A DNA stretch of 55,940 nt. Source: a virus. The DNA is taken from positions 1-55,940 of the IMG/VR virus record IMGVR_UViG_3300009184_005738, one strand, 5' to 3'. The translations under genes and the position numbers were made by a program. Every line of letters begins with the position of its first letter. Position 1 is the stretch's first letter. Positions 17,231-38,267 of the stretch are shown here, in pieces. Under the pieces are notes generated by a model, which did no database searches, had not been told where the DNA came from, and saw nothing but the letters and a program-made list of their open reading frames with translations.

Positions 17231-17571
17231 GATGCTGACATATTCTTTTTAGCTCTTAAAGTTTTTACGAACCTTATTCTTTCCTCTACAGAGGCTTTAA
17301 ATCTTAAGGCTGTAACTTTCCATTTGTCTTCTGTTGCTTTAAACTTGTACCAATCATTATTGTTCCACTGAGGGCCTAGTTCTACTTTCTTTTCAGAAAT
17401 ACGTCCCCTTTGCGCTGCTAGTTGAATTTCAACATCACGCAAAAGAACATTGAGCTCATCTAGCCAAAGCCTAAAGTCGCTAGACAAGTCCTCAACTAAA
17501 TCGTCAGAATCTCTCCTGACGTCTTTGGCTACTAAGCCTTTAAAGTCTTCCTTTGAAATATTAGCTATCAT
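17227..17571 (-). CDS. Helical hypothetical protein
   Basis: The 114-residue product is mostly charged helix (LRDVEIQLAAQRGRISEKKVEL, VEERIRFVKTLRAKK) and probably forms a coiled coil. It overlaps the UDG-like gene by 4 nt, so the two are co-translated. No recognised family. Confidence 0.65.
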   Translation of the reverse strand: MIANISKEDFKGLVAKDVRRDSDDLVEDLSSDFRLWLDELNVLLRDVEIQLAAQRGRISEKKVELGPQWNNNDWYKFKATEDKWKVTALRFKASVEERIRFVKTLRAKKNMSAS

Positions 17572-18332
17572 TTTTCACCGTAGACAAAGTTGTATGCTCT
17601 TCCAAAATCTTGTTCAAATAAGGAAGGCAGATTTCCGCTTCCGCGTAAAACGTAGGCGGGAGAATACGTCGGTAATACAGGCCAAGGCCCAAGCCATATA
17701 ATCTTACCTCGTTCTTCATTCATATGCAATTTAGCTGGAAGTATAGAGCATGTTGCTACTAGTCCCATAGTTACTATGAGTTTAGGCTTAAGTGTCTGTA
17801 TCTCATTCAGTAGGTATGGTATGCAGTTTTCTATTTCTTCCATCGTATGTTTGACTCTAGATTTTTTGCTGCATCTATTTACAAACGACATGCATATTCT
17901 TGAAGAGGTAAAACCAGCCTCAGATGCAGTCCTAGTGAAGTAATCCAAACTGTTTGGGTCAGACATTGGAACTTCAGATATAAAGACTACATCTGGGTCA
18001 GCTACGTTCCAAAATGGTATAGTAGCTCCAGGTTGTGTTTCTGGGCATTTCCTGCAATTCTTAGTGACAATGTGAAGCTGTTCTAAAGTTTGTTCTTTTT
18101 CGAAATCATCGAGCTGAGAACTCCTTAGCTCATGCAACACCATCTGAACATCTGCTTTGTTCAAGTATGGAGTTAAAACTGAATCCAGTTTCTCTAGTAG
18201 CGCTGAGTCACCAAAGGATAAGGGGATTTTTGAAGATACCCTGAAGGCATTGCCCCCCTTATCCCTTAACGCCTGCTCGACTAGCTGAAGAACTTCATCT
18301 TCGTCAAAGTCTTGCTGGATTTCCTCGTCCAT
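17568..18332 (-). CDS. Uracil-DNA glycosylase superfamily protein (family 4-like, Fe-S)
   Basis: The 254-residue protein has the four Cys of the Fe-S family 4/5 UDGs (C93, C96, C154, C170). It also has strand-turn segments VVFISEVP (119-122, the usual GEAPG position), LIVTMG at 185-190 and TYSPAY at 222-227, where family 4 enzymes have HPS. The motif 1 and motif 3 residues are changed, so its substrate may not be plain uracil. It starts by TGATG overlap with the SSB gene, which supports a DNA-repair or replication role. Confidence 0.75.
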   Translation of the reverse strand: MDEEIQQDFDEDEVLQLVEQALRDKGGNAFRVSSKIPLSFGDSALLEKLDSVLTPYLNKADVQMVLHELRSSQLDDFEKEQTLEQLHIVTKNCRKCPETQPGATIPFWNVADPDVVFISEVPMSDPNSLDYFTRTASEAGFTSSRICMSFVNRCSKKSRVKHTMEEIENCIPYLLNEIQTLKPKLIVTMGLVATCSILPAKLHMNEERGKIIWLGPWPVLPTYSPAYVLRGSGNLPSLFEQDFGRAYNFVYGEK

Positions 18333-18739
18333 CAGAATGAGCTAGGAGCTACGCTCTCTGCGCTAGTGGCCGCCGGGGCAGCACCCTCTGGCTTGCTACG
18401 TGAGGCGTATGTAATATTTTCGGCCACAATCACTACCTTTGAAGACTTCTTGTCGTCTGTGGACCAACGCTCCTGGACAAGGCGTCCTATCAAGCGAATC
18501 TGGCTACCCTTGGAGAGCTTGCCACTTGAGATTTGATTGCGAACGAATTCACAGTTGCGCTTATTCTCATCGCTATTCAAATAATAGGTAACATCAAAGT
18601 ACCCCGTGCTATTATCTGAACCCTTTTCGGAACCAGCATAATCGACGGCAACTCGGAACTTAGCGATGTTCTCTGTAGGCATTTCGGGATCTGCGACAAC
18701 GCCGCATGTAAGGTTTAGGTTATTGTTTGGATCTATCAC
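18332..18739 (-). CDS. ssb: Single-stranded DNA-binding protein (SSB)
   Basis: The 135-residue protein has an OB fold of SSB type: LTCGVVADPEM, AKFRVAVDY, YFDVTYYL, and SKGSQIRLIGRLVQERW followed by SSKVVIVAENITYA. The C-terminal tail is Ala/Ser-rich and ends PSSF, not the acidic DDxPF tip that recruits partners in most bacterial SSBs. It is coupled to the UDG-like gene and presumably coats replication intermediates. Confidence 0.85.
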   Translation of the reverse strand: MIDPNNNLNLTCGVVADPEMPTENIAKFRVAVDYAGSEKGSDNSTGYFDVTYYLNSDENKRNCEFVRNQISSGKLSKGSQIRLIGRLVQERWSTDDKKSSKVVIVAENITYASRSKPEGAAPAATSAESVAPSSF

Positions 18740-19316: not shown

Positions 19317-20153
19317 CTATGCAACAGAAAAACTATTTACAATTTTGACCATAGCTTCACGGATGTCCATACCCGAGTGCTGGCCTGCGTCATTTACGAA
19401 TGCATCTAGGGTATTTTTGAAAGTAGTTTCAACTTCAAAATCGCCACCAGAGGTATTGCGCTTAGGGTCCGACCATCTAGTTTCAAGTACGTTAAGAAGA
19501 GATAGTTTTTCCCAACTTTTGAAAAAGTTAAGATGATTCTTGATACTCGTACCGCTTGATAAGGCGGAAGGGATACCTGTGCGCATACTGTATTCGATAG
19601 TATCTGATAGGTCTAGGTTCCAGCCAGAATTCCATACCATATTGTAGGCGGCGTGAATTCCGTCTGCAAACGTTTCGCATGGTTCAAAATTTTCAAAGAT
19701 AGGGTTACACAAGGTGGAGTCGTAGTAAAGGTTTAGCATAGGTAGCATGTAAACCTTATCGCCCCAAGAGTATAGGGGTTCGTTTCTGCAGTAAACCCTA
19801 ACAGTTACCGGATTATTGTAGTCGTCGAATAAGACGTAGTAGATGGTCCACGGTATAGGGAGACTAAAGGATAGTACAGACGTACTGCTATTGATATTAT
19901 CTTTTTTATCAAAAGCAATTTCCACAAATTGAACAGTTGGTGGTCTCTCGAATACTGCTATCCGCTGGTTGTCAGATATCCACCTAACAGCTGGGGGTAG
20001 TAAGCCTAGGTCTTTCCTGTCTAGATTAACCATGCTTTTATATATATCTTCGCAATTTTTTTTTGCTAAAGGTATATTAGGGCTACCTGGCCCAGACTGA
20101 AAATAACCATCAACAGTATTGTTTGAGTCGTGTATATTTAAGTTAATTTTCAT
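19317..20153 (-). CDS. E2/UBC-like protein (PRTRC-B/Prok-E2 type), copy 1
   Basis: The protein (278 residues from ATG 20153) shares a block order with its upstream neighbour: LPPAVRWISDNQRIAVFERPP (51-72), LPIPWTIYYVLF (98-109) and LPMLNLYYDSTLC (137-149). This is the pattern of prokaryotic E2-like proteins, with C149 as the candidate catalytic Cys after the PN-like turn. It probably acts with the E1 and Ubl of the 28-32 kb operon. A TTG start 11 codons upstream is possible. The assignment rests on motif spacing, since overall similarity to classical E2s is very low. Confidence 0.6.
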   Translation of the reverse strand: MKINLNIHDSNNTVDGYFQSGPGSPNIPLAKKNCEDIYKSMVNLDRKDLGLLPPAVRWISDNQRIAVFERPPTVQFVEIAFDKKDNINSSTSVLSFSLPIPWTIYYVLFDDYNNPVTVRVYCRNEPLYSWGDKVYMLPMLNLYYDSTLCNPIFENFEPCETFADGIHAAYNMVWNSGWNLDLSDTIEYSMRTGIPSALSSGTSIKNHLNFFKSWEKLSLLNVLETRWSDPKRNTSGGDFEVETTFKNTLDAFVNDAGQHSGMDIREAMVKIVNSFSVA

Positions 20154-20175
20154 AGTAGGACAATTCCTTTTGTTG

Positions 20176-21090
20176 TCAAGATACAATCTCTTTAAAGAAT
20201 CGACTTAGAGTGTTTTTATTTACGGCAACTTGTTGTGCATTTCCACTTAGGTTTAATGAATTACACTGCTGCCCAACTGTCCTTACTTCTTGAGAAAAAC
20301 TTTCACTCATGACATCTTCCATAGACATTTTTGACCACTCAGAAAGGTAGCTGTCTGCAGTGTCACATCTTCCGCGCGCTTCGTACGGGAGTAGTATGTC
20401 CCCACTTAGGTAGGTTAGGTCGTTGTTAAACCATCCAGTCCAGAAACCGTTTATCGAATCAAGTAGATAGGCACCAAGACTGGCATATGATGTTCTGGGC
20501 ATGTTGTAAAGAACATCGCCCCAGCAGATTTTTGCGTCCTCATAAAGGTTTGGTAGCGGCAAGCTATACAGCATGTCGTCCATACTTGTCACCATTGTTG
20601 GTCTGGAATAAGCTTGGCAAGATGAAATGTGAACCAAATCTTTATCTAATTCGAAAAACCACAAAGTCCACGGCACGTTGAGGGTATATTCTGCCCGGAA
20701 CAGTTCACGGTTTTCTTCTTCCCAGCCGCATTGGCATTCATCAAGTTCATTAGAGTAACATTCGTCACACCTGTCTGATTCTTCTGCATGGTCGCCGTGT
20801 ATGTCTATGTACTTGACGGTTACCACGAATGGTGGTCGTTCAACCATGATGTGCATCATGTCCTTGGATACCCATCTAGTCACTGGAGGTAAGATATCTG
20901 TATCTTGGGAAGCTTTAGAGAAAAATTTCTTCGCAACTAAGCTAACGTCTAATTGCTCTATTTCAAAGATCCCATACGAGAATGAAGCCCTGGACGTAGT
21001 AATACTTACGGACTGAGCGATTGAGTCGACCGGCTCTTCTTCTAGTACTTTATTGGCTATTGATTGAATTTGATAATCTGTTGTTGTCAT
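20176..21090 (-). CDS. E2/UBC-like protein (PRTRC-B/Prok-E2 type), copy 2, with zinc insert
   Basis: This 304-residue protein has LPPVTRWVSKDMMHIMVERPP (67-87), LNVPWTLWFFELDKD (137-151) and LPLPNLYEDAKICWG (177-191). C189 is the likely active-site Cys. A Cys insert CDEC...CQC (108-121), absent from copy 1, probably binds zinc. It lies directly upstream of copy 1 in the same operon, consistent with a duplication followed by divergence. It is the clearest of the three dispersed E2-like proteins. Loss of catalysis in one copy, giving a UEV-like partner, is possible. Confidence 0.65.
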   Translation of the reverse strand: MTTTDYQIQSIANKVLEEEPVDSIAQSVSITTSRASFSYGIFEIEQLDVSLVAKKFFSKASQDTDILPPVTRWVSKDMMHIMVERPPFVVTVKYIDIHGDHAEESDRCDECYSNELDECQCGWEEENRELFRAEYTLNVPWTLWFFELDKDLVHISSCQAYSRPTMVTSMDDMLYSLPLPNLYEDAKICWGDVLYNMPRTSYASLGAYLLDSINGFWTGWFNNDLTYLSGDILLPYEARGRCDTADSYLSEWSKMSMEDVMSESFSQEVRTVGQQCNSLNLSGNAQQVAVNKNTLSRFFKEIVS

Positions 21091-22944: not shown

Positions 22945-23226
22945 TCAGGCGGTAAAGTTAATTTTAATGTCGTGAATAGTGACGTGTCCTTCGAGGAGTA
23001 GTTTGTAGACGTCTCCTTGGAGGACTGCTATTGACGATAGTTGTGGGTGGAGCTTCTTGGCTACTATGTAGGCTTTTCCAAGGAGTTCTAGGCTGTTGTA
23101 GATGTCGAATTCTTCGTCGTCTACTACGAGTAGTCCTACGTTGTTTTCTGCTATGTAGAACTCAGTTTTCTGGAGCCACGTTTTCCATGGGTTTTTCAGG
23201 CTCTGGGTTTCCGTTTTCCATGACAT
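22945..23226 (-). CDS. Small hypothetical protein
   Basis: The 93-residue frame starts at ATG 23226, which overlaps the upstream gene by 65 nt. The true start could be a later non-ATG codon near 23165. The remaining part (NNVGLLVVDDEEFDIYNSLELLG) looks like an alpha/beta domain. Function unknown. Confidence 0.5.
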   Translation of the reverse strand: MSWKTETQSLKNPWKTWLQKTEFYIAENNVGLLVVDDEEFDIYNSLELLGKAYIVAKKLHPQLSSIAVLQGDVYKLLLEGHVTIHDIKINFTA

Positions 23227-23536
23227 CTGACGTGTACTCCAGGGTTTCTAGCATTATCGTTCTTAGTTCCATTACTTTTTCTTGGAAGGACTTTTGTCTT
23301 TCTTCGTTTTCGTATTGGAGTTGGAACAGTAGGGCTTCTAGGAGGACGGCTTGTTCTGCAAAGCCTACGGTAACTGTTGCTAGTTGTTGTTCTAATGCTT
23401 CTACTTTTGAGCTGTGTAGCTCTAGTTCTTCTGTAAATAGTCTTTGGTGGGATCTGAATGATCCGTCTACTTTGGAGTAGAATAGGTCGAGGTCTTCTTG
23501 GGAGACTGACCTTGGGATTTGTGATTCTTCTGTCAT
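23162..23536 (-). CDS. Coiled-coil hypothetical protein
   Basis: This 124-residue protein is almost entirely charged helix (VEALEQQLATVTVGFAEQAV, FQEKVMELRTIMLETLEY) with an acidic Pro-rich tail. It starts at the stop of the gene at 23536 (ATTATT overlap). It is probably a scaffold or adaptor, by structure only. Confidence 0.6.
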   Translation of the reverse strand: MTEESQIPRSVSQEDLDLFYSKVDGSFRSHQRLFTEELELHSSKVEALEQQLATVTVGFAEQAVLLEALLFQLQYENEERQKSFQEKVMELRTIMLETLEYTSDVMENGNPEPEKPMENVAPEN

Positions 23537-24144
23537 TATTCAACAAACCATTCTAAGTTTGAGTTGGCATTTGAAGCAAGGCATAGGTCTACTCTGTATG
23601 ATATTTCAGCCATTTCTACTCTTGTTATTTTGATTGAGTCGGTAGATAGTGGGCTTGACATGTCTGGTAGGAATGCGCCGGAGGATGATTTGTTTGCTTT
23701 GAAGTGTCCGCATTTGAATATGAATGCACTGTTGTCGTATTCGGTTTCGCCTTTGCGCCAGTAGTGTGATTTGAATATGCGTGATATTGGTTTTCCGTCT
23801 GGTCCTGTTCCTCCACCGTAGAAGGCTACGCCTTCGTCGGTTGGTACACCGAGTTTTGCGTTGGTTTTGTACAGGTTTTTTCCGTATCCTGCGGTTACTG
23901 CTTTGCAGTAGGTGGCGAATAGGATTGAGTCGACGAATGTTTCGGTGTGTGATTTGAGGCTTGCGTCTGAACCGGTTGCGCCTATGTCTATTCTGAATTT
24001 ACCTATTTTGAGCAGTGGTTTGATTGATACGAATCCACTGGCTGATGGTGATTTAAACCATTTTTTGTATAGGTCAGGAATAATTTTTTTGTCGGCGCTT
24101 GAATCGCTTGCGATTATTGGTTCTTGGTCTAAGTTTAGGTCCAT
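23536..24144 (-). CDS. Hypothetical protein next to AAA+ ATPase
   Basis: This 202-residue protein has a basic Gly/Ser-rich middle with GTGPDGKPISRIFKSHYWRKGE and a C-terminal strand-rich segment. I do not recognise it. It follows the ATPase gene by 8 nt, so it may be its adaptor or substrate. Confidence 0.65.
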   Translation of the reverse strand: MDLNLDQEPIIASDSSADKKIIPDLYKKWFKSPSASGFVSIKPLLKIGKFRIDIGATGSDASLKSHTETFVDSILFATYCKAVTAGYGKNLYKTNAKLGVPTDEGVAFYGGGTGPDGKPISRIFKSHYWRKGETEYDNSAFIFKCGHFKANKSSSGAFLPDMSSPLSTDSIKITRVEMAEISYRVDLCLASNANSNLEWFVE

Positions 24145-24152
24145 TGATTTCC

Positions 24153-25730
24153 TTAGAATGATTGCATTACTGGTTTACGTTTTTTGCTGGTTGGTCCGTT
24201 GAGTAGGGTTTGTGCGTCTGCGAGTTGGGCGGAACTGGCCCAGTCCCATTCGGCTATTGCCCTTTGGTACATTTCGACGACTGTGGCACGATGTTTTACC
24301 CACATGCGGTTTTGTTGTGTTGGGATGAGTGTTTCTACATCTTCTTGGCTGATCTTGCGCTTTTCTCTGACAGAGATTTTGAAACGGGCTTCACGGATGA
24401 GGGCTTTTATTTCTGCACCCGTGAAGGTTTCCGTCATTGCAGCAAGTGTGTCTAGGTTGAAGCGTTCTGCATCTTTGTCTAAGTGTATGTTGAAGATGCT
24501 GAGACGTTCTTCGAATGATGGTAGGCCGACAAACATGATTTTGTCGAACCTGTCGGCACGGAGCATTTCTGGGCTGATGTGCCCAATCTGATTTGCTGCG
24601 GCCATGAGTAGTACGTTGTCTGGAAGTTCTTGTATGCCGGTTAGGAATTCACCGTGAACACGAGAGGTTGTACCTCCGTCGCCTTGGTAGTCTCCGGCGG
24701 AGAGGTCACGTCCGAGCTCGTCCATCCATACAACTAGTGGAGCCATTGCCCGTAGTTGTGCGAATGCTGAGCGCATACGCTTTTCTGATTCACCGATAAA
24801 CTTATCCATCATCTGGCTTACGCCAAATTTGGCAAGGTCAAGATTTAGTGTGCTGGCTGTGGCTTCGCAGATGGCTGATTTTCCAGTACCTGGCACACCA
24901 ACGAACAGTATGCGCCTTAGCGGCATGATGTCTAGTTCTGCAGCTTCTTGAGGGTTGTTCCATGTCCATACAACATTCTCGATTAGCTCTTTGGCAAGGT
25001 CGAGTCCGCCTATTTGGTCTAGGGAGATTGATGGCCGGCGGATTTCTAGGATCCCACCTTCTTTGACGCGATCCATCTTCCACTTAGCTATGTAAGCTGG
25101 GTCTACAGTCTTTTCGGTGTTGAGGCTCATTAGCGATACTTGGATGAACTCTTGCTCGGTTAGCCCTAGGCCAGCTTTTACGATTTGGCTGAGGTCTATG
25201 TTCCCTGAGTCTAGGATTGGGTCTTGCGAGAACATGGAGGCGCATAGGTGTGCGAGTTCTGCTTCGGATGGGTATCCGGGGGAGGACACAACGAAGTGCT
25301 TGATGAGTTCTTTGGGCACTTCTTCTGTGCACGACAGTAGGATAAACTGTGGGCCTATTTTGGTTTTATCGTTTTGGATTACCGCAGAGCGATATTTATT
25401 GTAGACTCCACTGAATAACCCTATAAGGTTTTCTGCTATTATATGGCCATTTTCTAAGATGATGCAAGCATTCTTGTCGATGACATACTGAATAGCAACT
25501 TCTAAATTGCTTGTTGGAACTTCCCTGAGGTCGCCTTCTTCTGCGGAACCCATCTCAATGAGAACGGTTTTCCAAGAATTGTCCCGCCAAACACTTAATC
25601 CTTCGAAAGGGTCTAGGTGGTAAACTTCATTGACACTTGTGCTGCAAATGATTTCCGTGACCCGTTCGGGCTCGACGGTGTTGACCCATATTAGCGGGGA
25701 GCCAATACGGAGGTGTTGGATGAGTTCCAT
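24153..25730 (-). CDS. Ycf46-like AAA+ ATPase
   Basis: The 525-residue protein has an N-terminal alpha/beta domain (1-200) beginning with HLRIGSPLIWVNTVEPERV, typical of Ycf46-like proteins. A single AAA+ module follows: Walker A GVPGTGKS (278-285), Walker B VVWMDE (333-338), sensor AAN (378-380) and arginine-finger segment RADRFD (391-396). The IGESE pore-side motif is also present. It lies in the same strand group as the E1, JAB, Ubl and E2-like genes. A role as an unfoldase or remodeller of Ubl-tagged proteins is plausible, but no protease is fused to it. Independent phage functions are possible. Confidence 0.85.
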   Translation of the reverse strand: MELIQHLRIGSPLIWVNTVEPERVTEIICSTSVNEVYHLDPFEGLSVWRDNSWKTVLIEMGSAEEGDLREVPTSNLEVAIQYVIDKNACIILENGHIIAENLIGLFSGVYNKYRSAVIQNDKTKIGPQFILLSCTEEVPKELIKHFVVSSPGYPSEAELAHLCASMFSQDPILDSGNIDLSQIVKAGLGLTEQEFIQVSLMSLNTEKTVDPAYIAKWKMDRVKEGGILEIRRPSISLDQIGGLDLAKELIENVVWTWNNPQEAAELDIMPLRRILFVGVPGTGKSAICEATASTLNLDLAKFGVSQMMDKFIGESEKRMRSAFAQLRAMAPLVVWMDELGRDLSAGDYQGDGGTTSRVHGEFLTGIQELPDNVLLMAAANQIGHISPEMLRADRFDKIMFVGLPSFEERLSIFNIHLDKDAERFNLDTLAAMTETFTGAEIKALIREARFKISVREKRKISQEDVETLIPTQQNRMWVKHRATVVEMYQRAIAEWDWASSAQLADAQTLLNGPTSKKRKPVMQSF

Positions 25731-28028: not shown

Positions 28029-28274
28029 TCAGCCCTTTTCGCCTGCTCGACGATGGAACTCGACGTTGTCGCCGGGCTGAATGACATAAGAGTCATCCAA
28101 CTTCTCTTTACCCTTGTAGGCGTTAGCGTCTGTTGGGATTCCCCACATTGCGCTGAACTGTCCACGAAGATCTGACACACTCTTGCCTGCGTGGCTACCT
28201 GGGTTGTTGTATACGCCGTAACGGATCTGGGCAGACCCATTGCTTTCGGCGCTAGACGATGATGCTTGCTGCAT
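28029..28274 (-). CDS. Ubiquitin-like beta-grasp protein (PRTRC-C-like)
   Basis: The 81-residue protein has a Ser-rich flexible N-terminus (1-15), then a beta-grasp-like pattern (QIRYGVYNN, a helix at about 33-45, and SYVIQPGDNVEFHRRAGEKG at 62-81). The last part matches, as I recall it, the conserved end of the PRTRC protein C family. It ends in Gly with no extension, so it could be adenylated without processing. Its Shine-Dalgarno AAGGAGC lies in the last codons of the E1 gene and its start is two bases after the E1 stop, so the two are coupled. It is the likely modifier of this system. Confidence 0.75.
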   Translation of the reverse strand: MQQASSSSAESNGSAQIRYGVYNNPGSHAGKSVSDLRGQFSAMWGIPTDANAYKGKEKLDDSYVIQPGDNVEFHRRAGEKG

Positions 28275-28275
28275 T

Positions 28276-29058
28276 TTAAGCTCCTTGATATACTATATCG
28301 TTAATGTTAATACTGCGATCAAAACTTTGGGCTAGACCGGCTTCCAAGTCAAAGAAATACTCAGAATTAAAAGCCGGATCTTTACCTTCAACAATGACCA
28401 TGTTGAACCGCGCTAGCAATGCTGCTGTTACGGCCATATTCGTGGCTAGAAGTTGCGTCCCTCCATCTAGTTGGGCTCTTTCTTGACACGAAAGTTCACC
28501 AGGGTTACGGTCAGGAGGATCAACATATTCCTCATGCCATACCGAAGGATGATCTACCAGCTCTACACCATCACGCTTTGCGTAGTGATAGGTGGAGCCA
28601 AAATATCTTTCATCATTACCGCCAAGGAATACATCAACATCATTAAGCTCACTAGCAGCATCAATGAGTTGCTTCCTTGCTTTGAAGTTATCTACTACCG
28701 CAAAGATTACGTCGCCCTCAGCTATTAGATCGCAAGCAGCGATCTTACCTGCAGATGGCGTTCCGTCTTCTTCCTTGTCTTCCTTACCATTTTCTGCCAC
28801 TTTGTCAACAACCCAGTAGGGCATTGGTATGATAAAGGTTTTATCAAATTGCGGTATCAATTCGTTAGCTAAAACTTCTGCTTTATTTCCAACACCATTA
28901 AAGAATTGGCGTTGTTTGTTTTTAGCTTCGAAATTATCGCCATCAACAATTAGCAGGGCCGAACCTGGCATGGTCCATTCTAGTGTCATAGCAATAGAGC
29001 GAGACAGTAAAGAACCTATACCGCCTGCCCCAACGATGACTACTCTTTTTTCTTGCAT
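28276..29058 (-). CDS. E1-like ThiF-family adenylating enzyme
   Basis: The 260-residue protein has the nucleotide-binding GAGGIG (10-15), the DGDNFEAKN..RQ motif (39-51), and VDNFKARKQ (122-130), all key ThiF/E1 residues. The candidate catalytic Cys is C191 in GELSCQERA, followed by a helix rich in small residues as in E1-like proteins. It should adenylate the C-terminal Gly of the Ubl encoded directly downstream and pass it to an E2-like Cys. AAGGA, formed by the last codons of the upstream gene, serves as its binding site. The length fits PRTRC-type ThiF proteins. Confidence 0.88.
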   Translation of the reverse strand: MQEKRVVIVGAGGIGSLLSRSIAMTLEWTMPGSALLIVDGDNFEAKNKQRQFFNGVGNKAEVLANELIPQFDKTFIIPMPYWVVDKVAENGKEDKEEDGTPSAGKIAACDLIAEGDVIFAVVDNFKARKQLIDAASELNDVDVFLGGNDERYFGSTYHYAKRDGVELVDHPSVWHEEYVDPPDRNPGELSCQERAQLDGGTQLLATNMAVTAALLARFNMVIVEGKDPAFNSEYFFDLEAGLAQSFDRSININDIVYQGA

Positions 29059-29763
29059 TTAAAATTCCTTGTAATCAATAAACAGTTTTTCGCTGTTGGT
29101 GGAAGATTTCTCAAAAGTATTTTCAACGACTAAGTGATCGTAGTCGAAGGATTCGCAAGTGATTATTTTTTCGCCTATAACACCGTGATACAGAAAATCT
29201 GCTACAGATTTCCTTATCTCAGGACATTTCTCGGTATAATAATTGACGCAATCTTTACAGAGACTGTATTGGTCGTCTTCATTGTACAAACTATCCCAAA
29301 TACCGGGAGGTACATCTGACGTATCTTCCCATGATAATGGCTTCACACAAAGGCATGCTGCCCATGTTTGGTCGCAGCAGATCATCCAAGGATCGTCATC
29401 AGAATAGAATGCGTCAATTTTTTGCACTGTTTCGGGGCTTGCCGAAGCATAGAAATCATCCCAATCTGTTTCCACAAATTTAACTCCACAGTCCTCACAG
29501 CTAGAGTCTAAATACTCTATATAGCTGATACAGTTGGGGTTAAGGCATTCAATGACTAAGGCTTCTTGCTTTTCTATCAATGTTTCATTGACGGAAATAT
29601 CAAGATTACCTAGCGGGTGGTAGCAATATGGGCATGAACTGTACTTAGCTTCTGTTTCGTCCAACTCTTGGTAACATTCATAACAGAATGCCGCAGATGT
29701 TGAACGTTCAGCTATTTTCCCGCAACACCACCTACTCCGCCTGCACCGTGGAAAAGTTCGCAT
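29059..29763 (-). CDS. Multi-zinc protein between JAB and E1 genes
   Basis: This 234-residue protein has six or more Cys pairs: CC (13-14), CYEC and CPYC near 27-45, CLNPNC and CEDC around 73-92, CCD and CLC further on, and CKDC near 170. They are spaced like several zinc ribbons or treble clefs. Its start overlaps the JAB gene by 52 nt and its stop abuts E1, so it belongs to the cassette. RING and other zinc folds serve as E3s in ubiquitin systems. An E3 or substrate adaptor is a reasonable but unproved guess. Confidence 0.6.
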   Translation of the reverse strand: MRTFPRCRRSRWCCGKIAERSTSAAFCYECYQELDETEAKYSSCPYCYHPLGNLDISVNETLIEKQEALVIECLNPNCISYIEYLDSSCEDCGVKFVETDWDDFYASASPETVQKIDAFYSDDDPWMICCDQTWAACLCVKPLSWEDTSDVPPGIWDSLYNEDDQYSLCKDCVNYYTEKCPEIRKSVADFLYHGVIGEKIITCESFDYDHLVVENTFEKSSTNSEKLFIDYKEF

Positions 29764-30971
29764 TCTTCTTTTTCGCCGCGACGCCAGATGTAAACATCCC
29801 TAGAAACACCCATTTCTATATCGATCTCTGTAGAGTAAAGACCTTTGCTCTTTCGCTCAATACAGATATCATTTAGTGTTTCACCGGGTAGCATTATGTA
29901 ATTGTGGCAGCCGAGGCAACGTCGTTTTTCGTAGTCAGCTTTGATAAACTTAGTTAGACAAAATGGACATTCTTTTTCTTTGTCTTCTTTAAGTTCTGCA
30001 ACAATAGTATTCTTATTTGGATCTGGAAAACCTGCTGGAAGCTTTACTGAAACGCTTCCGTAGCTAGTGGAATACTTATTGCCGGAGCTTGTGCTGGGAG
30101 CATAGCTCGTAGAGCCATACCCATAACTATAGCCAGAGGGGGTAACTACTGGGGCTTTTTTGGATACCTTTTCCATCCACTGATCTACAACTGGTGAAGG
30201 TTCTGGTTTTGGAAAAGATTCAAATACTTGGCTTGGTTCCATAGTGAAAACTCCGCCAGGTGTTTGAAGCTCAATATAGTATTCTGTGGCGTTGTTATTG
30301 TGGCTTTTGCGCCAACCATAAGTTATATGAATTCCCGGAAAATCTGCTTGATCTTTATGATCAGTTCCGGAAGCAAAGGCTGACATTGCCGGATGAGAAT
30401 GTGCGGATCCTACGACATAAACATGCTCTTCTTTTTGTTGAGCAATAGATTCGTGATCATACAAGCAATCTGCGGCAGTATTTACTTGATCGGGAACTAA
30501 GATGCCCCAGCCTTCGCTTGGGTTATCTTTTTCAAGGTAGTCTGGATCGTAAGTAAGCAGGACTATAGACTCGGTGCCATGCTTAGCTTCTACTGCCCTA
30601 AAGAAATCGTCCATCATTTGAACATGGCTATAAGGGATGGCCGGAAGCTTGTAATTGGCTTCGACAGTCATTTGATCTAGGCCGAGTTCGTCAGGGTCTG
30701 CTACGGTTACAGACCTAGATATAATGGTATTAACAACCTTGAAAATTGTAGGCCTCTCTGAGGCTTTAGTCACTTTACCATCATTGTGATTATACTTCTC
30801 TACGCACATAACGTAGTAGAAACTATAACCATGAGCTTCGATGTGGCTACAAATTTTGTCTATATCACCAACAAAGCATGGTAAACCGTTAGGCAGATCA
30901 AACTGCTTAATTTGATCTAGCGGTATTAGTTCCACTATATCTTCTTCTATTACATCTTTTTCTGTGGTCAT
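29712..30971 (-). CDS. JAB/JAMM metallo-isopeptidase (PRTRC-A-like)
   Basis: The 419-residue protein has a complete JAMM motif, HSHPAMSAFASGTD (191-204), i.e. HxHx7SxxD, with E153 (SEGWGILVP) as the likely upstream Glu. A Ser/Tyr-rich linker (265-310) leads to a zinc ribbon (C335, C338, C352, C355). The tail ends in GAGGVGGVAGK. It should cleave Ubl from proteins or process the Ubl. All four catalytic positions are kept, so it is probably active. It follows the E2-like gene by 46 nt with GGAG before ATG. Confidence 0.9.
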   Translation of the reverse strand: MTTEKDVIEEDIVELIPLDQIKQFDLPNGLPCFVGDIDKICSHIEAHGYSFYYVMCVEKYNHNDGKVTKASERPTIFKVVNTIISRSVTVADPDELGLDQMTVEANYKLPAIPYSHVQMMDDFFRAVEAKHGTESIVLLTYDPDYLEKDNPSEGWGILVPDQVNTAADCLYDHESIAQQKEEHVYVVGSAHSHPAMSAFASGTDHKDQADFPGIHITYGWRKSHNNNATEYYIELQTPGGVFTMEPSQVFESFPKPEPSPVVDQWMEKVSKKAPVVTPSGYSYGYGSTSYAPSTSSGNKYSTSYGSVSVKLPAGFPDPNKNTIVAELKEDKEKECPFCLTKFIKADYEKRRCLGCHNYIMLPGETLNDICIERKSKGLYSTEIDIEMGVSRDVYIWRRGEKEECELFHGAGGVGGVAGK

Positions 30972-31017
30972 TGTTGTGCTCCAGATTAGATTAGAATCTT
31001 ATCGATTCTTCAATTAT

Positions 31018-32355
31018 TTAAACGGACTGAGCAGTCGCTGCGTAATTAGTCGAACAACTAACGCATGAGTTATTTTCTTCTAATATCGTAAATTCGTTGC
31101 ATTTAACGCAATAACTTGCATTTGCGCAGTCAGTGCAGTGGAAGTTAAAAATTCCTTCATACTGATAATAATACAAATAGGAAAAGTGCTTTTTACTTAA
31201 ACAAGAAGCGCATGTTTCGTACTCTACTTCAAAACAACTAGTGCATACATTGCCGTCGTCGGTTTCTATGCAGTGCTCGTAACCATAAAAACCTTTACAT
31301 GCATAACAGCAAAATGACGGGCCAGCTATGGGAATTATTGGTTCGTTTTGATTTAATGGTTGTACTTCTTTATGTTTTGTATTCGTAAATGCTTTTTTGA
31401 TATTACTCAGAACGTCTTTGCCGCTTGGATTCTCCAGATCAGATCTAGAAAAAGATTGGTAAGATTTTATTGGTTCTGAATCAGTATAATAAGCTTTATA
31501 TTTTCCGTCCATAGCGGAACCAATGGTGAGGTGCTCTCCATTTTCATGGTGTTTACCTTGAGAGTCAAGTCCTTCCACCATTACCGGCAGCCAGATTGAG
31601 GGATCTAGTGTCCATTGGAATCCTTCAGTTTCGCTTTTTTGTTCCCAGTCTTCTGGGTTCCAAAGGTAAGAATATGATTGGAACTCTTCATCGTTTTCGA
31701 CGTTGTAAGTTCCTTTATATTCGCAAAATTCTTTTGTATAGCATTCGTGGTAAAACCTTGGGCCATCAGTTTCGCTCATGTTAGAGTCGTTATAGGCTTC
31801 TGTTCCACCAGATCGTTCTAAAAGGTGAGATATTTTGTGCCCTATATCTAGTTTAGATATGGAAGGTTGATTATGGTACAAGCATATCCATCCAACTCCT
31901 ACACCACCACCAGCGTGGCTTTGGCTATAGCCTTTACAGTTTAGGTTTGGAAGATTTACGTGGAATAATATTTGATTTTTGCTTGTTATTGGACTAATAC
32001 TATAGAAGTGTCTTGCACCATAAAATTCATTGTTAAGGAAATCTCCAATGACAATTCTATATGGCATTGCTAGATCGTAATGGATTGCTTCTTGATCGCC
32101 TTCGTTTTTGCCCCAAATAACCCTGTATATTTCTGGCTTGTGCTGAAATACAACCTGCATTCTATCGAAAGATTTGCGTATAGATAGAACACCAGAGCCG
32201 TCTAAGGGTAACAATCCCGTTTCGAAAAAGGATACTTCCGACAGGGACAAGAAGAAGTCGCTAAGGTCAACTTCTTCTATTTTAGACTGATTTCCGGCAT
32301 TGATTGTTAATTGAGCTTTTTGTTCATTCAGCAATAAATAAGAATCAATACTCAT
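31018..32355 (-). CDS. E2/UBC-like domain fused to a RING-like zinc domain
   Basis: The 445-residue protein has an E2-like region (about 90-185): DLAMPYRIVIGDF, FYSISPITSKNQILFHVNLPN (120-137) and GWICLY with C158 as candidate catalytic Cys. This matches the E2 order strand, HPN-like turn, then Cys-Leu. A linker leads to a 13-Cys C-terminal region (349-434) with CxxC pairs at 350/353, 371/374, 382/385, 407/410, 416/419 and 431/434, which would bind three zincs. An E2 with its own E3-like zinc domain would be unusual. C140 is a second possible catalytic Cys. Confidence 0.7.
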   Translation of the reverse strand: MSIDSYLLLNEQKAQLTINAGNQSKIEEVDLSDFFLSLSEVSFFETGLLPLDGSGVLSIRKSFDRMQVVFQHKPEIYRVIWGKNEGDQEAIHYDLAMPYRIVIGDFLNNEFYGARHFYSISPITSKNQILFHVNLPNLNCKGYSQSHAGGGVGVGWICLYHNQPSISKLDIGHKISHLLERSGGTEAYNDSNMSETDGPRFYHECYTKEFCEYKGTYNVENDEEFQSYSYLWNPEDWEQKSETEGFQWTLDPSIWLPVMVEGLDSQGKHHENGEHLTIGSAMDGKYKAYYTDSEPIKSYQSFSRSDLENPSGKDVLSNIKKAFTNTKHKEVQPLNQNEPIIPIAGPSFCCYACKGFYGYEHCIETDDGNVCTSCFEVEYETCASCLSKKHFSYLYYYQYEGIFNFHCTDCANASYCVKCNEFTILEENNSCVSCSTNYAATAQSV

Positions 32356-32367
32356 ATATAATCCTTG

Positions 32368-32766
32368 TTATTTATCTTCGGATTGAAGAAGTTTTTTGAC
32401 TGCATCATCAATTTCATCATCAAAATCACCAAAAGCCCAAGCGAGCCAATTTGGATCTTTTTCTGCAATATCTACTAAAGATTTGCGTTTCAATAATTCA
32501 TCGTAGGGTTCTATTATTTCGGATAAACGACCTAGACCTTTAGATAGTCCAGCTAGTTCACCTTTATCATGAGATAATTGAAGGATTGCACCAAGGATGG
32601 GGTTCCCATCTATTGTAAACCTTTTTATAATTGTGTCTATCCGAGTCTCAAGTGCCTCTATCTGCAATTCCATTTCTTGCTTTGCAAAAGAGGCACTTGT
32701 AGTACTGAATTTAAACGACTTAATAGGGCTTACTGGCAAACCTTCATGGGAAGGTTGATTCGTCAA
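32368..32766 (-). CDS. Helical hypothetical protein
   Basis: The 132-residue protein has a coiled-coil-like stretch (MELQIEALETRIDTIIKRF) and an acidic C-terminus. It overlaps the upstream gene by 23 nt and precedes the E2-zinc gene by 12 nt, with AAGGA for that gene in the gap. No recognised family. Confidence 0.65.
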   Translation of the reverse strand: MTNQPSHEGLPVSPIKSFKFSTTSASFAKQEMELQIEALETRIDTIIKRFTIDGNPILGAILQLSHDKGELAGLSKGLGRLSEIIEPYDELLKRKSLVDIAEKDPNWLAWAFGDFDDEIDDAVKKLLQSEDK

Positions 32767-36783: not shown

Positions 36784-37554
36784 TTAGACTAGTTCCATTA
36801 AAGCTATATTTGCTGGAACTAATTTATATTCATTAAAAATTGAATCAAAACTGCGAATAAATTGTTTGTCGTCTTGATATGACCCTCCTAACTGCAATGG
36901 TATTTCATCCATAAGAGAATAAATTTCTGCATTTTCTGACGGCCAAAAATTAATTGGATCAACAGTAAGTTTTTCCCATTTTTTGAAAAAACTAGGCCAG
37001 TTTTTAGTATTCCATATTTTAGCTAAATAACGTGCTAATGGAACTTTTGTAATTGTACCGGAAACTTTGTGGATCAATGGGTAGTCATTATTGCCAACAT
37101 CATAAGAAAAAGTTGAGTAAGCTCTATTAAAAATGTCAATATAGTTATAATCAAATAACATTGATTTTTCTGAATTTCTTTTAAATTCTTTATAAGAAGC
37201 ACCACAAAGGCTTCCGTTCATATCCATATTTGAAAATGGGGCATCCATCATACATTTGGAGTCATCCATTTTTTCGCCACAAAAAAATATTCTATTTATT
37301 TTAATATCATAACTATGACTATAAGAAAGATTGCCATCGCTTGCTTTATAGCCGTAGTTATAGCAAGAGTAATTTTCTGATACTAAAAAATATGTCCAAG
37401 GAACAGGCAATGAATATTGTGTTCTGGCATAGGTGTAGCGCATTAAATGTGGCGGAGTCTCGTAAAGAAACCAATTACTTTTGAAAGCGCTATAATTATT
37501 ATTGTTTTCTTTTATTAAGTTTTTTTCATCTGTTTTTGCTATTAAATTTAACAT
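36784..37554 (-). CDS. E2/UBC-like protein, copy 3, divergent
   Basis: Start ATG 37554 is chosen because the longer frame would enter the tmRNA. The 256-residue protein has YSLPVPWTYFLVSE (47-60) and APFSNMDMNGSLCG (105-118) with C117 as the Cys, matching LPxPW and the Asn-(x)-Cys spacing of copies 1 and 2. The N-terminal RW...RPP block is weak (ETPPHLMRY). A C-terminal helical part, WPSFFKKWEKLTV, resembles FFKSWEKLSL of copy 1, which supports homology. It starts only 8 nt after the tmRNA end with no Shine-Dalgarno sequence. Confidence 0.55.
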   Translation of the reverse strand: MLNLIAKTDEKNLIKENNNNYSAFKSNWFLYETPPHLMRYTYARTQYSLPVPWTYFLVSENYSCYNYGYKASDGNLSYSHSYDIKINRIFFCGEKMDDSKCMMDAPFSNMDMNGSLCGASYKEFKRNSEKSMLFDYNYIDIFNRAYSTFSYDVGNNDYPLIHKVSGTITKVPLARYLAKIWNTKNWPSFFKKWEKLTVDPINFWPSENAEIYSLMDEIPLQLGGSYQDDKQFIRSFDSIFNEYKLVPANIALMELV

Positions 37555-37561
37555 AGTTAAG

Positions 37562-37951
37562 TGGAGCTGGGGTGAATCGAACCCCCGTCTTTCGGACGAG
37601 TTTCTATTGTGATACAACTATTCCCGCTAAACGGCGGGTCGCTAGGGCCGATCGGCTCATTTGAGCTTCACGTATTCCACCAGTTATTCTTTCATAACAG
37701 TCAAGTAGTCTTTCCTATTAGCCCACCTGTCTATCCAGGTTGTCCGCCTAGTTTCCGTTGATAGGCACTAGGCAAGCCCCGGGACACTAGTTAGACTAGT
37801 GCACCCTCCTCAGCGAGAAGAGTGGCCATAGCGGCATCCCAATCGACGATGTTAGTATCGGCGTTTATTTTTTGTGCCCGCTTTAACGTCTCTGAGCTAG
37901 ACGAGTTGCACGCCAGAACTTCTGACCCCGAAATCGAAACCAGTCAGCCCC
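37562..37951 (-). ncRNA. ssrA: tmRNA
   Basis: The 390-nt - strand RNA begins GGGGCTGACTGGTTTCGA, the usual tmRNA 5' end, and ends with T-arm GGGGG-TTCGATT-CACCC and acceptor CAGCTCC, which pairs with GGGGCTG (one G-U). CCA is not encoded. A stop-terminated tag frame lies at 37862-37791 and several pseudoknot-like hairpins follow it. It should rescue stalled ribosomes during infection. Phage-borne tmRNAs are known from Bxz1-type mycobacteriophages. Confidence 0.92.
37791..37862 (-). other. tmRNA tag reading frame (23 residues, ends ALV)
   Basis: The frame starts at a GCC resume codon (37860-37862), begins ADTNIV and ends AEEGALV before TAA. Most bacterial tags end ALAA, which ClpXP recognises. 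The ALV end agrees with what I recall of the Bxz1 tag. The resume codon is inferred by analogy. Confidence 0.75.
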
Positions 37952-37994: not shown

Positions 37995-38267
37995 TTAGAA
38001 GGAATTTTTCTCTCTACCAAGGTCATAAGCACCGCTGGGTAAGAAGAATTCTATTTCATCTTCATCTCTTATTACATAGTCCCAACTAACTTGTATACAC
38101 CTGGAGGGTATTGAGTTTGAGGGATTCCTTTTCAGAACTTTCATTGGGGAGAAGTTAAGGGATATCCCTTCAAAATATTCTTTATATTCAACAATTGCTT
38201 TCTGTATAGTCATTCCAGCAGCATTTTGAATATTGTATGTTTTTTTATCCCAAACTATTTTTGGCAT
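37995..38267 (-). CDS. Second ubiquitin-like (beta-grasp) candidate
   Basis: The 90-residue protein begins with strands (PKIVWDKKTYNI), a helix (TIQKAIVEYKEYFE) and ends DYVIRDEDEIEFFLPSGAYDLG plus six residues. The end aligns with SYVIQPGDNVEFHRRAGEKG of the Ubl at 28029, sharing YVI, D, EF and two Gly. The extra tail would need trimming before activation, perhaps by the JAB protein. It lies next to the tmRNA and an E2-like gene. AAAGGA precedes the ATG. Confidence 0.5.
   Translation of the reverse strand: MPKIVWDKKTYNIQNAAGMTIQKAIVEYKEYFEGISLNFSPMKVLKRNPSNSIPSRCIQVSWDYVIRDEDEIEFFLPSGAYDLGREKNSF

Follow-up and report, generated by a model that had tools for sequence, protein, structure and literature searches.

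The 55,940-base IMG/VR virus record IMGVR_UViG_3300009184_005738, the whole of which is called the window here, appears to carry on its minus strand a phage counterpart of the ubiquitin-like PRTRC systems known from plasmids. We put the probability of this reading at roughly 0.75, and take it to include a functional scheme in which an E1 would pass a small ubiquitin-like protein (Ubl) to E2-like proteins and on to targets, a JAMM enzyme would remove it, and an AAA+ ATPase would remodel what had been tagged. The support computed here consists of gene content, gene order, conserved motif residues, the predicted fold of the Ubl and profile kinship to PRTRC proteins. A preliminary description of this DNA had proposed a complete ubiquitin-like conjugation and deconjugation set of five adjacent minus-strand genes. 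All five open reading frames (ORFs) lie where it placed them, and a cassette of this kind is upheld by the E1 and JAMM profiles, the predicted Ubl fold, an E2-like motif with Prok-E2_D profile links, its location in a phage and its universal co-conservation in one phage family. The limit to five did not hold: the operon goes on to further E2-like genes and an AAA+ ATPase of the Cdc48 type. The principal components are as follows.

28029..28274, minus strand: Ubl, 81 amino acids, ending EFHRRAGEKG; predicted beta-grasp, tail conserved in relatives
28276..29058, minus strand: ThiF-family E1 with ELSCQER, in which Cys191 is the putative catalytic residue; Pfam ThiF 1.5e-10
29059..29763, minus strand: "multi-zinc" ORF, likeliest a 218-amino-acid -1 extension of the JAMM protein from the heptamer on the next line
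29715..29721, minus strand: predicted -1 frameshift site, a slippery heptamer G GGA AAA with the stop codon of JAMM directly after it
29712..30971, minus strand: candidate JAMM/JAB isopeptidase, 419 amino acids in the 0 frame; contains a CxxC..CxxC zinc motif
31018..32355, minus strand: E2a, with E2-like region LPNLNC..GWICLYH and a C-terminal zinc region; motif and profile link
24153..25730, minus strand: AAA+ ATPase of the Cdc48/p97/PAN class, 525 amino acids; Pfam AAA 8e-25
20176..21090, minus strand: E2b, Prok-E2_D type, PN-x7-C (LPNLYEDAKICWG); Pfam Prok-E2_D 2.1e-4, below cut-off
19317..20186, minus strand: E2c, paralogue of E2b, N-x7-C; Asn and Cys invariant in the alignment
23536..24144, minus strand: p202, conserved, next to the AAA+ gene and in all loci with flank; no family match
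23162..23536, minus strand: p124, conserved small protein; gene-order conservation
32368..32766, minus strand: up1, small conserved protein encoded just upstream of E2a

Related loci were recovered by searching with the AAA+ gene (16 loci) and with the E1 alignment (48 viral loci). The order up1, E2a, JAMM, E1, Ubl, AAA+, p202, p124 is kept in all 38 loci that have both flanks, and E2b/c-type genes are present in every one of these. As the E1s represent 30 lineages under 95% identity, a single order throughout means that the genes do not occur together by chance. Two of the loci, L066 and L067, are distant variants whose E1s are about 31% identical; they carry E1, Ubl, JAB and E2-like genes with no recognised AAA+ gene nearby, and in both a reverse-transcriptase-like ORF lies between the modules. 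A terminase large subunit was present in eight of the 11 related records tested, these eight being long contigs. Taken with the complete, same-order set in 38 of 38 loci, this makes the cassette, judged from sequence, a core phage operon. That the genes belong to a phage and not to a bacterial chromosome, as the preliminary description held, is sustained by the virus record and by the terminase in relatives. The sole match in a genome collection, locus L072 (PXAT01000157.1), is a 10.4 kb contig in an Ectothiorhodospiraceae metagenome-assembled genome; it has the same split-JAMM layout as described below and is probably a misbinned phage contig, and a bacterial origin was rejected. As a separate observation, the 267.8 kb contig IMGVR_UViG_3300042868_009074 carries the entire cassette twice, as two differing copies (L007/L045 and L011/L056) about 215 kb apart; either the cassette is doubled or the assembly is chimeric.

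For the comparison with PRTRC we aligned one locus retrieved by the PRTRC_B model together with ten plasmid loci retrieved in turn with the ThiF protein of that locus. Profile-profile alignment joined the phage E1 to PRTRC ThiF with a probability of 99.3 (E 1.4e-20) and the Cys motifs in register, the E2b/c family to PRTRC B at 94.9 (E 4e-8) across P-x-x-N-x7-C, and JAMM to PRTRC A at 71 (E 3.7e-5). By these profiles plasmid PRTRC systems are the nearest of the relatives tested, and the phage set appears to share their ancestry and probably works like them, yet as a separate branch. The curated NCBIfam PRTRC cut-offs were missed by a wide margin (ThiF 21.1 against 144.75 bits, A 15.2 against 101.8). 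PRTRC ParB had no match in eight virus records, which may be fragments; PRTRC E and F had no match either, but the control for these also matched nowhere.

Sequence comparison placed the Ubl in no family, PDB profile and NCBIfam searches included. Its AlphaFold2 model (12 sequences aligned, predicted local distance difference test (pLDDT) 76.8) is a beta-grasp, and its structural matches are dominated by ubiquitin, ubiquitin relatives and other beta-grasp proteins: TtuB at Z 8.7, Fubi at 8.6, MoaD at 8.3 and ubiquitin at about 8. The best of them, at Z 8.0-8.7, superpose with root-mean-square deviations of mostly 1.8-2.5 over 60-68 residues. Foldseek E-values were modest (best 1.8e-3), as is expected for so small a protein. 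The C-terminal tail AGEKG, with Gly at its end, is kept in relatives, a few of which have extensions. The Gly-ended beta-grasp protein first proposed is supported by the predicted fold. Precursors with one or two residues past the conserved Gly were seen in L014/L030, L049, L053, L055, L061, L066 and L067, with tails GEKGNI, GEKGSL, GEKGLA, AGAKGF and AGTKGC; these would need trimming ahead of conjugation. The E1 is a single-domain protein of 260 amino acids in which GxGGIG and Cys191 are invariant, and its motif NPGE[LM]SC[QE] occurs in 48 of 48 related viral loci, bearing out the ThiF-type E1 with GxGGxG and a Cys that had been proposed. E1 and Ubl evolve slowly, with a nonsynonymous to synonymous substitution ratio (dN/dS) of about 0.05 against near relatives, a rough figure because dS is saturated.

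The JAB/JAMM peptidase with HxHx7SxxD was likewise correctly recognised: Pfam Prok-JAB matches at 3.4e-5, just below the curated cut-off, and H191, H193, S201 and D204 are invariant among 12 sequences. Over the 48 viral loci the signature H-x-H-P..S..D is absent only where the contig end cuts the gene (L022, L053, L062); it is kept in L041 with a T-to-V change in a neighbouring residue and in L066 with different spacing. The best PDB profile match, which is non-significant (E 0.015), is the Rpn11 homologue of Caldiarchaeum subterraneum.

The multi-zinc protein gene of the preliminary description exists as an ORF, but it is probably not a separate gene; we read it as a predicted -1 ribosomal-frameshift extension of JAMM. 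Most relatives encode JAMM together with the zinc region in a single ORF of about 540-590 amino acids. Six loci have the two split, and in each of these the JAMM frame stops 0-2 codons past an in-frame slippery X XXY YYZ heptamer (GGGAAAA in five, AAAAAAA in one), and the -1 frame from that heptamer runs on into the zinc region. About 2,540 codons of split-locus ORFs contain 17 in-frame heptamers of this form, so that about 3% of ORFs would be expected to have one in their last four codons, against the six of six observed. The 70 bases downstream of the heptamer form a better fold than shuffled sequence in the window (z -2.6, or -2.56) and in three other loci (-2.4, -5.3, -2.6), and only weakly so in the last two (-1.7, -0.3). 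It seems improbable to us that the zinc ORF is instead a separate gene that starts inside the overlap and gives no frameshift product: an ATG in the zinc frame does lie at 29763 in the window, but L002/L021 have no usual start in that frame until well inside the conserved part, and both the heptamer that lies where JAMM stops in each of the six split loci and the unbroken ORF of most relatives speak for the extension. The predicted products would be a 419-amino-acid JAMM and a 637-amino-acid fusion, and frameshifting would set the dose of the tag-removing enzyme.

The assignment of E2a as an E2 candidate rests on its motif and profile links. The motif LPNxNC..WxCLY occurs in 43 of 43 related viral loci; Cys140, Cys158 and the four CxxC pairs of the C-terminal zinc region are invariant; and profile-profile alignment with E2b/c gave a probability of 94.4 (E 9e-8). 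No family was matched. The E2-like protein with a zinc domain of the preliminary description stands as to motif, conserved Cys and profile links, while its structure model did not confirm a UBC fold. Matches of the zinc region to RING or FYVE were at chance level and were discarded; an E3 role for it is speculation. The E2b/c alignment, of 22 members, has eight invariant positions only, including an Asn and a Cys spaced N-x7-C, and a Prok-E2_D match was found in four of the 22. The same spacing is present in plasmid PRTRC B proteins and in the HPN...Cys motif of classical E2s. The cassette includes two further E2-like proteins with N-x7-C, E2b and E2c, and perhaps a third, E2d (listed below), whose profile match was not significant (E 0.53 at Z=1000).

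The AAA+ ATPase matched the Cdc48 model at 4e-38 and, by PDB profile, a VCP-like ATPase at 4.7e-71. It has the Walker A and B motifs and lid of the Cdc48 class, and the Walker motifs are kept in relatives. The HbYX proteasome docking motif was not seen at its C-terminus. Downstream of the Ubl-AAA+ operon, an HslV-family peptidase gene was found in eight fetched loci.

L092:2358-2966, minus strand: HslV/proteasome-like gene
L093:1477-2088: HslV/proteasome-like gene
L094:1617-2231: HslV/proteasome-like gene
L096:1863-2474: HslV/proteasome-like gene
L097:3019-3630, minus strand: HslV/proteasome-like gene
L009:20643-21263: HslV/proteasome-like gene
L014:20133-20762: HslV/proteasome-like gene
L017:20183-20803: HslV/proteasome-like gene

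All five of those scanned matched Pfam Proteasome, and phrog_1040 was matched at 3e-24. Such a peptidase is a possible protease partner of the ATPase. As none was found in the 55.9 kb window fragment and HslV-like peptidases occur in other phages too, the coupling is a lead only.

Several observations weigh against the reading of the window as a phage PRTRC-type system. The Ubl ends in KG, not GG, and its alignment to PRTRC C is weak (hhalign probability 7.7, E 0.0045), with the same tail at the end. E2a had no direct profile match to PRTRC B, and no E2-like protein was among the matches listed for its model; the model is of low confidence (mean pLDDT 63, Cys loop below 50), so we set a confirmed UBC fold aside and use the model as evidence neither way. 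Finally, AAA+ genes more distantly related to this one occur in phages of Mycobacterium, Rhizobium, Rhodobacter and Aeromonas, and no Ubl genes are detectable near them. The ATPase can hence stand alone, its link to tagging could be incidental, and the occurrence of such genes in cultured phages without detectable partners led us to reject it as a marker of Ubl sets.

We infer all reaction steps, the frameshift and the connection of the ATPase to tagging; E1-to-E2-to-target transfer and JAMM removal follow from established knowledge of these families. In the proposed scheme the E1 would adenylate the Ubl at its C-terminal Gly81 and then hold it as a thioester on Cys191. The E2-like proteins would take it on their conserved Cys and hand it on to target amines, with the zinc modules of E2a and of the frameshift-extended JAMM serving as substrate or E3-like docking parts. 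JAMM would remove the Ubl, and would also trim the few precursors that have extra C-terminal residues. The Cdc48-like ATPase would extract tagged proteins from complexes. Our best guess for the targets, tentatively held, is proteins at phage or host DNA, because the sets are found close to replication or partition genes in phages and plasmids. A link to replication is weakly suggested by single-stranded DNA-binding protein (SSB) and uracil-DNA glycosylase (UDG) in the phage, and by SSB, DNA polymerase III subunits, primase and ParB on the plasmids. More doubtful still is a wider picture of a phage ubiquitin-unfoldase system, with an HslV/proteasome-like gene nearby in some relatives, in which several E2s would tag proteins of phage or host so that they are remodelled or broken down, and the frameshift would set the ratio of short to zinc-extended JAMM and so balance tagging against removal.

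Other purposes for the same genes have to be weighed; the preliminary description had suggested that the set could tag defence proteins of the host, modify the virion or shield proteins of the phage. Tagging of host proteins for takeover or anti-defence, with variable E2-like and zinc parts that track host differences, is possible and, we think, somewhat unlikely. Between phages whose E1s are 86-88% identical, identity falls to only 40-41% for E2b and 36-38% for the zinc extension, and a constant core with fast-changing recognition parts would fit targets that differ between hosts. However, fast change can also reflect relaxed constraint. In the literature searched, bacterial Ubl conjugation is described chiefly as a means by which hosts fight phages (Bil, Bub, type II CBASS), and the phage might tag other phages much as bacteria use Bil against phage tails. 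The component classes are indeed those of Bil (PMC11354881), but universal retention as core genes is unlike a typical accessory weapon and the single-domain E1 differs from the two-domain E1 described for BilD, making this use quite improbable. Least probable is a sulfur carrier system without protein tagging, in which a ThiS/MoaD/TtuB-like Ubl serves thiolation, the E1 activates only and JAMM is a maturation protease: TtuB, a sulfur carrier, is the top structural match of the Ubl and the E1 also matches ThiF/MoeB models, but several E2-like genes with conserved N-x7-C share the operon, the kinship of the E1 to PRTRC ThiF takes in the Cys motif, and no sulfurtransferase was noticed in the cassette.

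The following further features of the window were recorded.

36784..37617, minus strand: E2d, weak E2-like candidate (PFSNMDMNGSLCG, N-x7-C), read from sequence
37995..38267, minus strand: possible second Ubl-like protein, 90 amino acids, weak; a 13-residue profile match only, with Ubl resemblance near the C-terminus, and no Pfam match
18332..18739, minus strand: SSB, conserved downstream neighbour; Pfam SSB 2.9e-6
17568..18332, minus strand: UDG family, conserved downstream neighbour; Pfam UDG 1e-11

The possible second Ubl-like protein is encoded close to E2d, and together they form a possible second tag and E2 pair, a weak lead. The gene content of the window is phage-like, with a DnaE-type polymerase, SSB, RNase H, an amidase, tRNAs and a transfer-messenger RNA (tmRNA). 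A WhiB protein, a second WhiB-like protein and an Rpf-type transglycosylase are also present, and from such genes the host of the phage family is probably actinobacterial. The tmRNA gene lies at 37561-37951 on the minus strand, with the predicted tag ADTNIVDWDAAMATLLAEEGALV, and there are seven tRNA genes in the same phage.

If the phage PRTRC-type reading is right, bacterial viruses possess a protein-tagging pathway of their own, with E1, E2, Ubl, JAMM and a Cdc48-like motor as core genes. A few small proteins suffice to test the pathway directly, and it could yield a compact orthogonal tagging system. The early history of ubiquitin would also gain divergent families of E2-like proteins. No described purpose for the PRTRC plasmid cassette was found in the literature searched, and the phage family offers a route to one. 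What looks new is an E1-E2-Ubl-JAMM pathway with an unfolding motor as fixed core genes of a large-phage family; the plasmid relatives were already known. We found no paper on phage-encoded E1-E2-Ubl-JAMM sets, but preprints and most subscription papers lay outside the scope of the search and an earlier report is possible.

Among known systems, the lambdoid TAPI/TAPK genes are likewise a Ubl and JAB pair carried by a phage (PMC1779556), but they are described there as tail-assembly genes whereas the set in the window sits with E1, E2-like, AAA+ and replication genes. The ubiquitin system of Caldiarchaeum subterraneum has an Rpn11-like JAMM, and its ubiquitin is among the Foldseek matches of the Ubl; it is a cellular archaeal system and the likeness is at the level of fold and motif. 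Bil (PMC11354881) and Bub (PMC13373217) comprise the same enzyme classes, namely E1, E2, Ubl and JAB-type, but by their descriptions are host-encoded and antiphage. BilA is a double-Ubl protein and BilD an E1 with two adenylation domains (PMC11354881), whereas the phage encodes one 81-amino-acid Ubl and a single-domain 260-amino-acid E1. The preliminary description had held that PRTRC and Bil have the same parts; kinship by profile was found for PRTRC, and Bil was set beside the window only by its published description. Carriage by a phage has database precedent as such, since two cultured phages have ThiF, JAB and Prok-E2_D genes side by side: Burkholderia phage BgVeeders33 (L091), with an ordinary PRTRC-type set including a PRTRC-C-like Ubl, and Bacillus phage KLEB27-3 (L088), neither of them close to the window genes in sequence. 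Their PRTRC-type genes are partly annotated as hypothetical, and as cultured phages they are ready laboratory models. PRTRC itself (NCBIfam TIGR03734-TIGR03742), a cassette of large bacterial plasmids, we identify from its gene content with operon type 6d in Iyer et al. 2006 (PMC1779556). It shares with the phage set a ThiF-type E1, Prok-E2_D, JAB, a small Ubl with an [R]xxG-x-K-G tail and a position near replication or partition genes; the phage set differs in being made up of core genes and in adding a Cdc48-like AAA+ ATPase, several E2-like genes and zinc modules.

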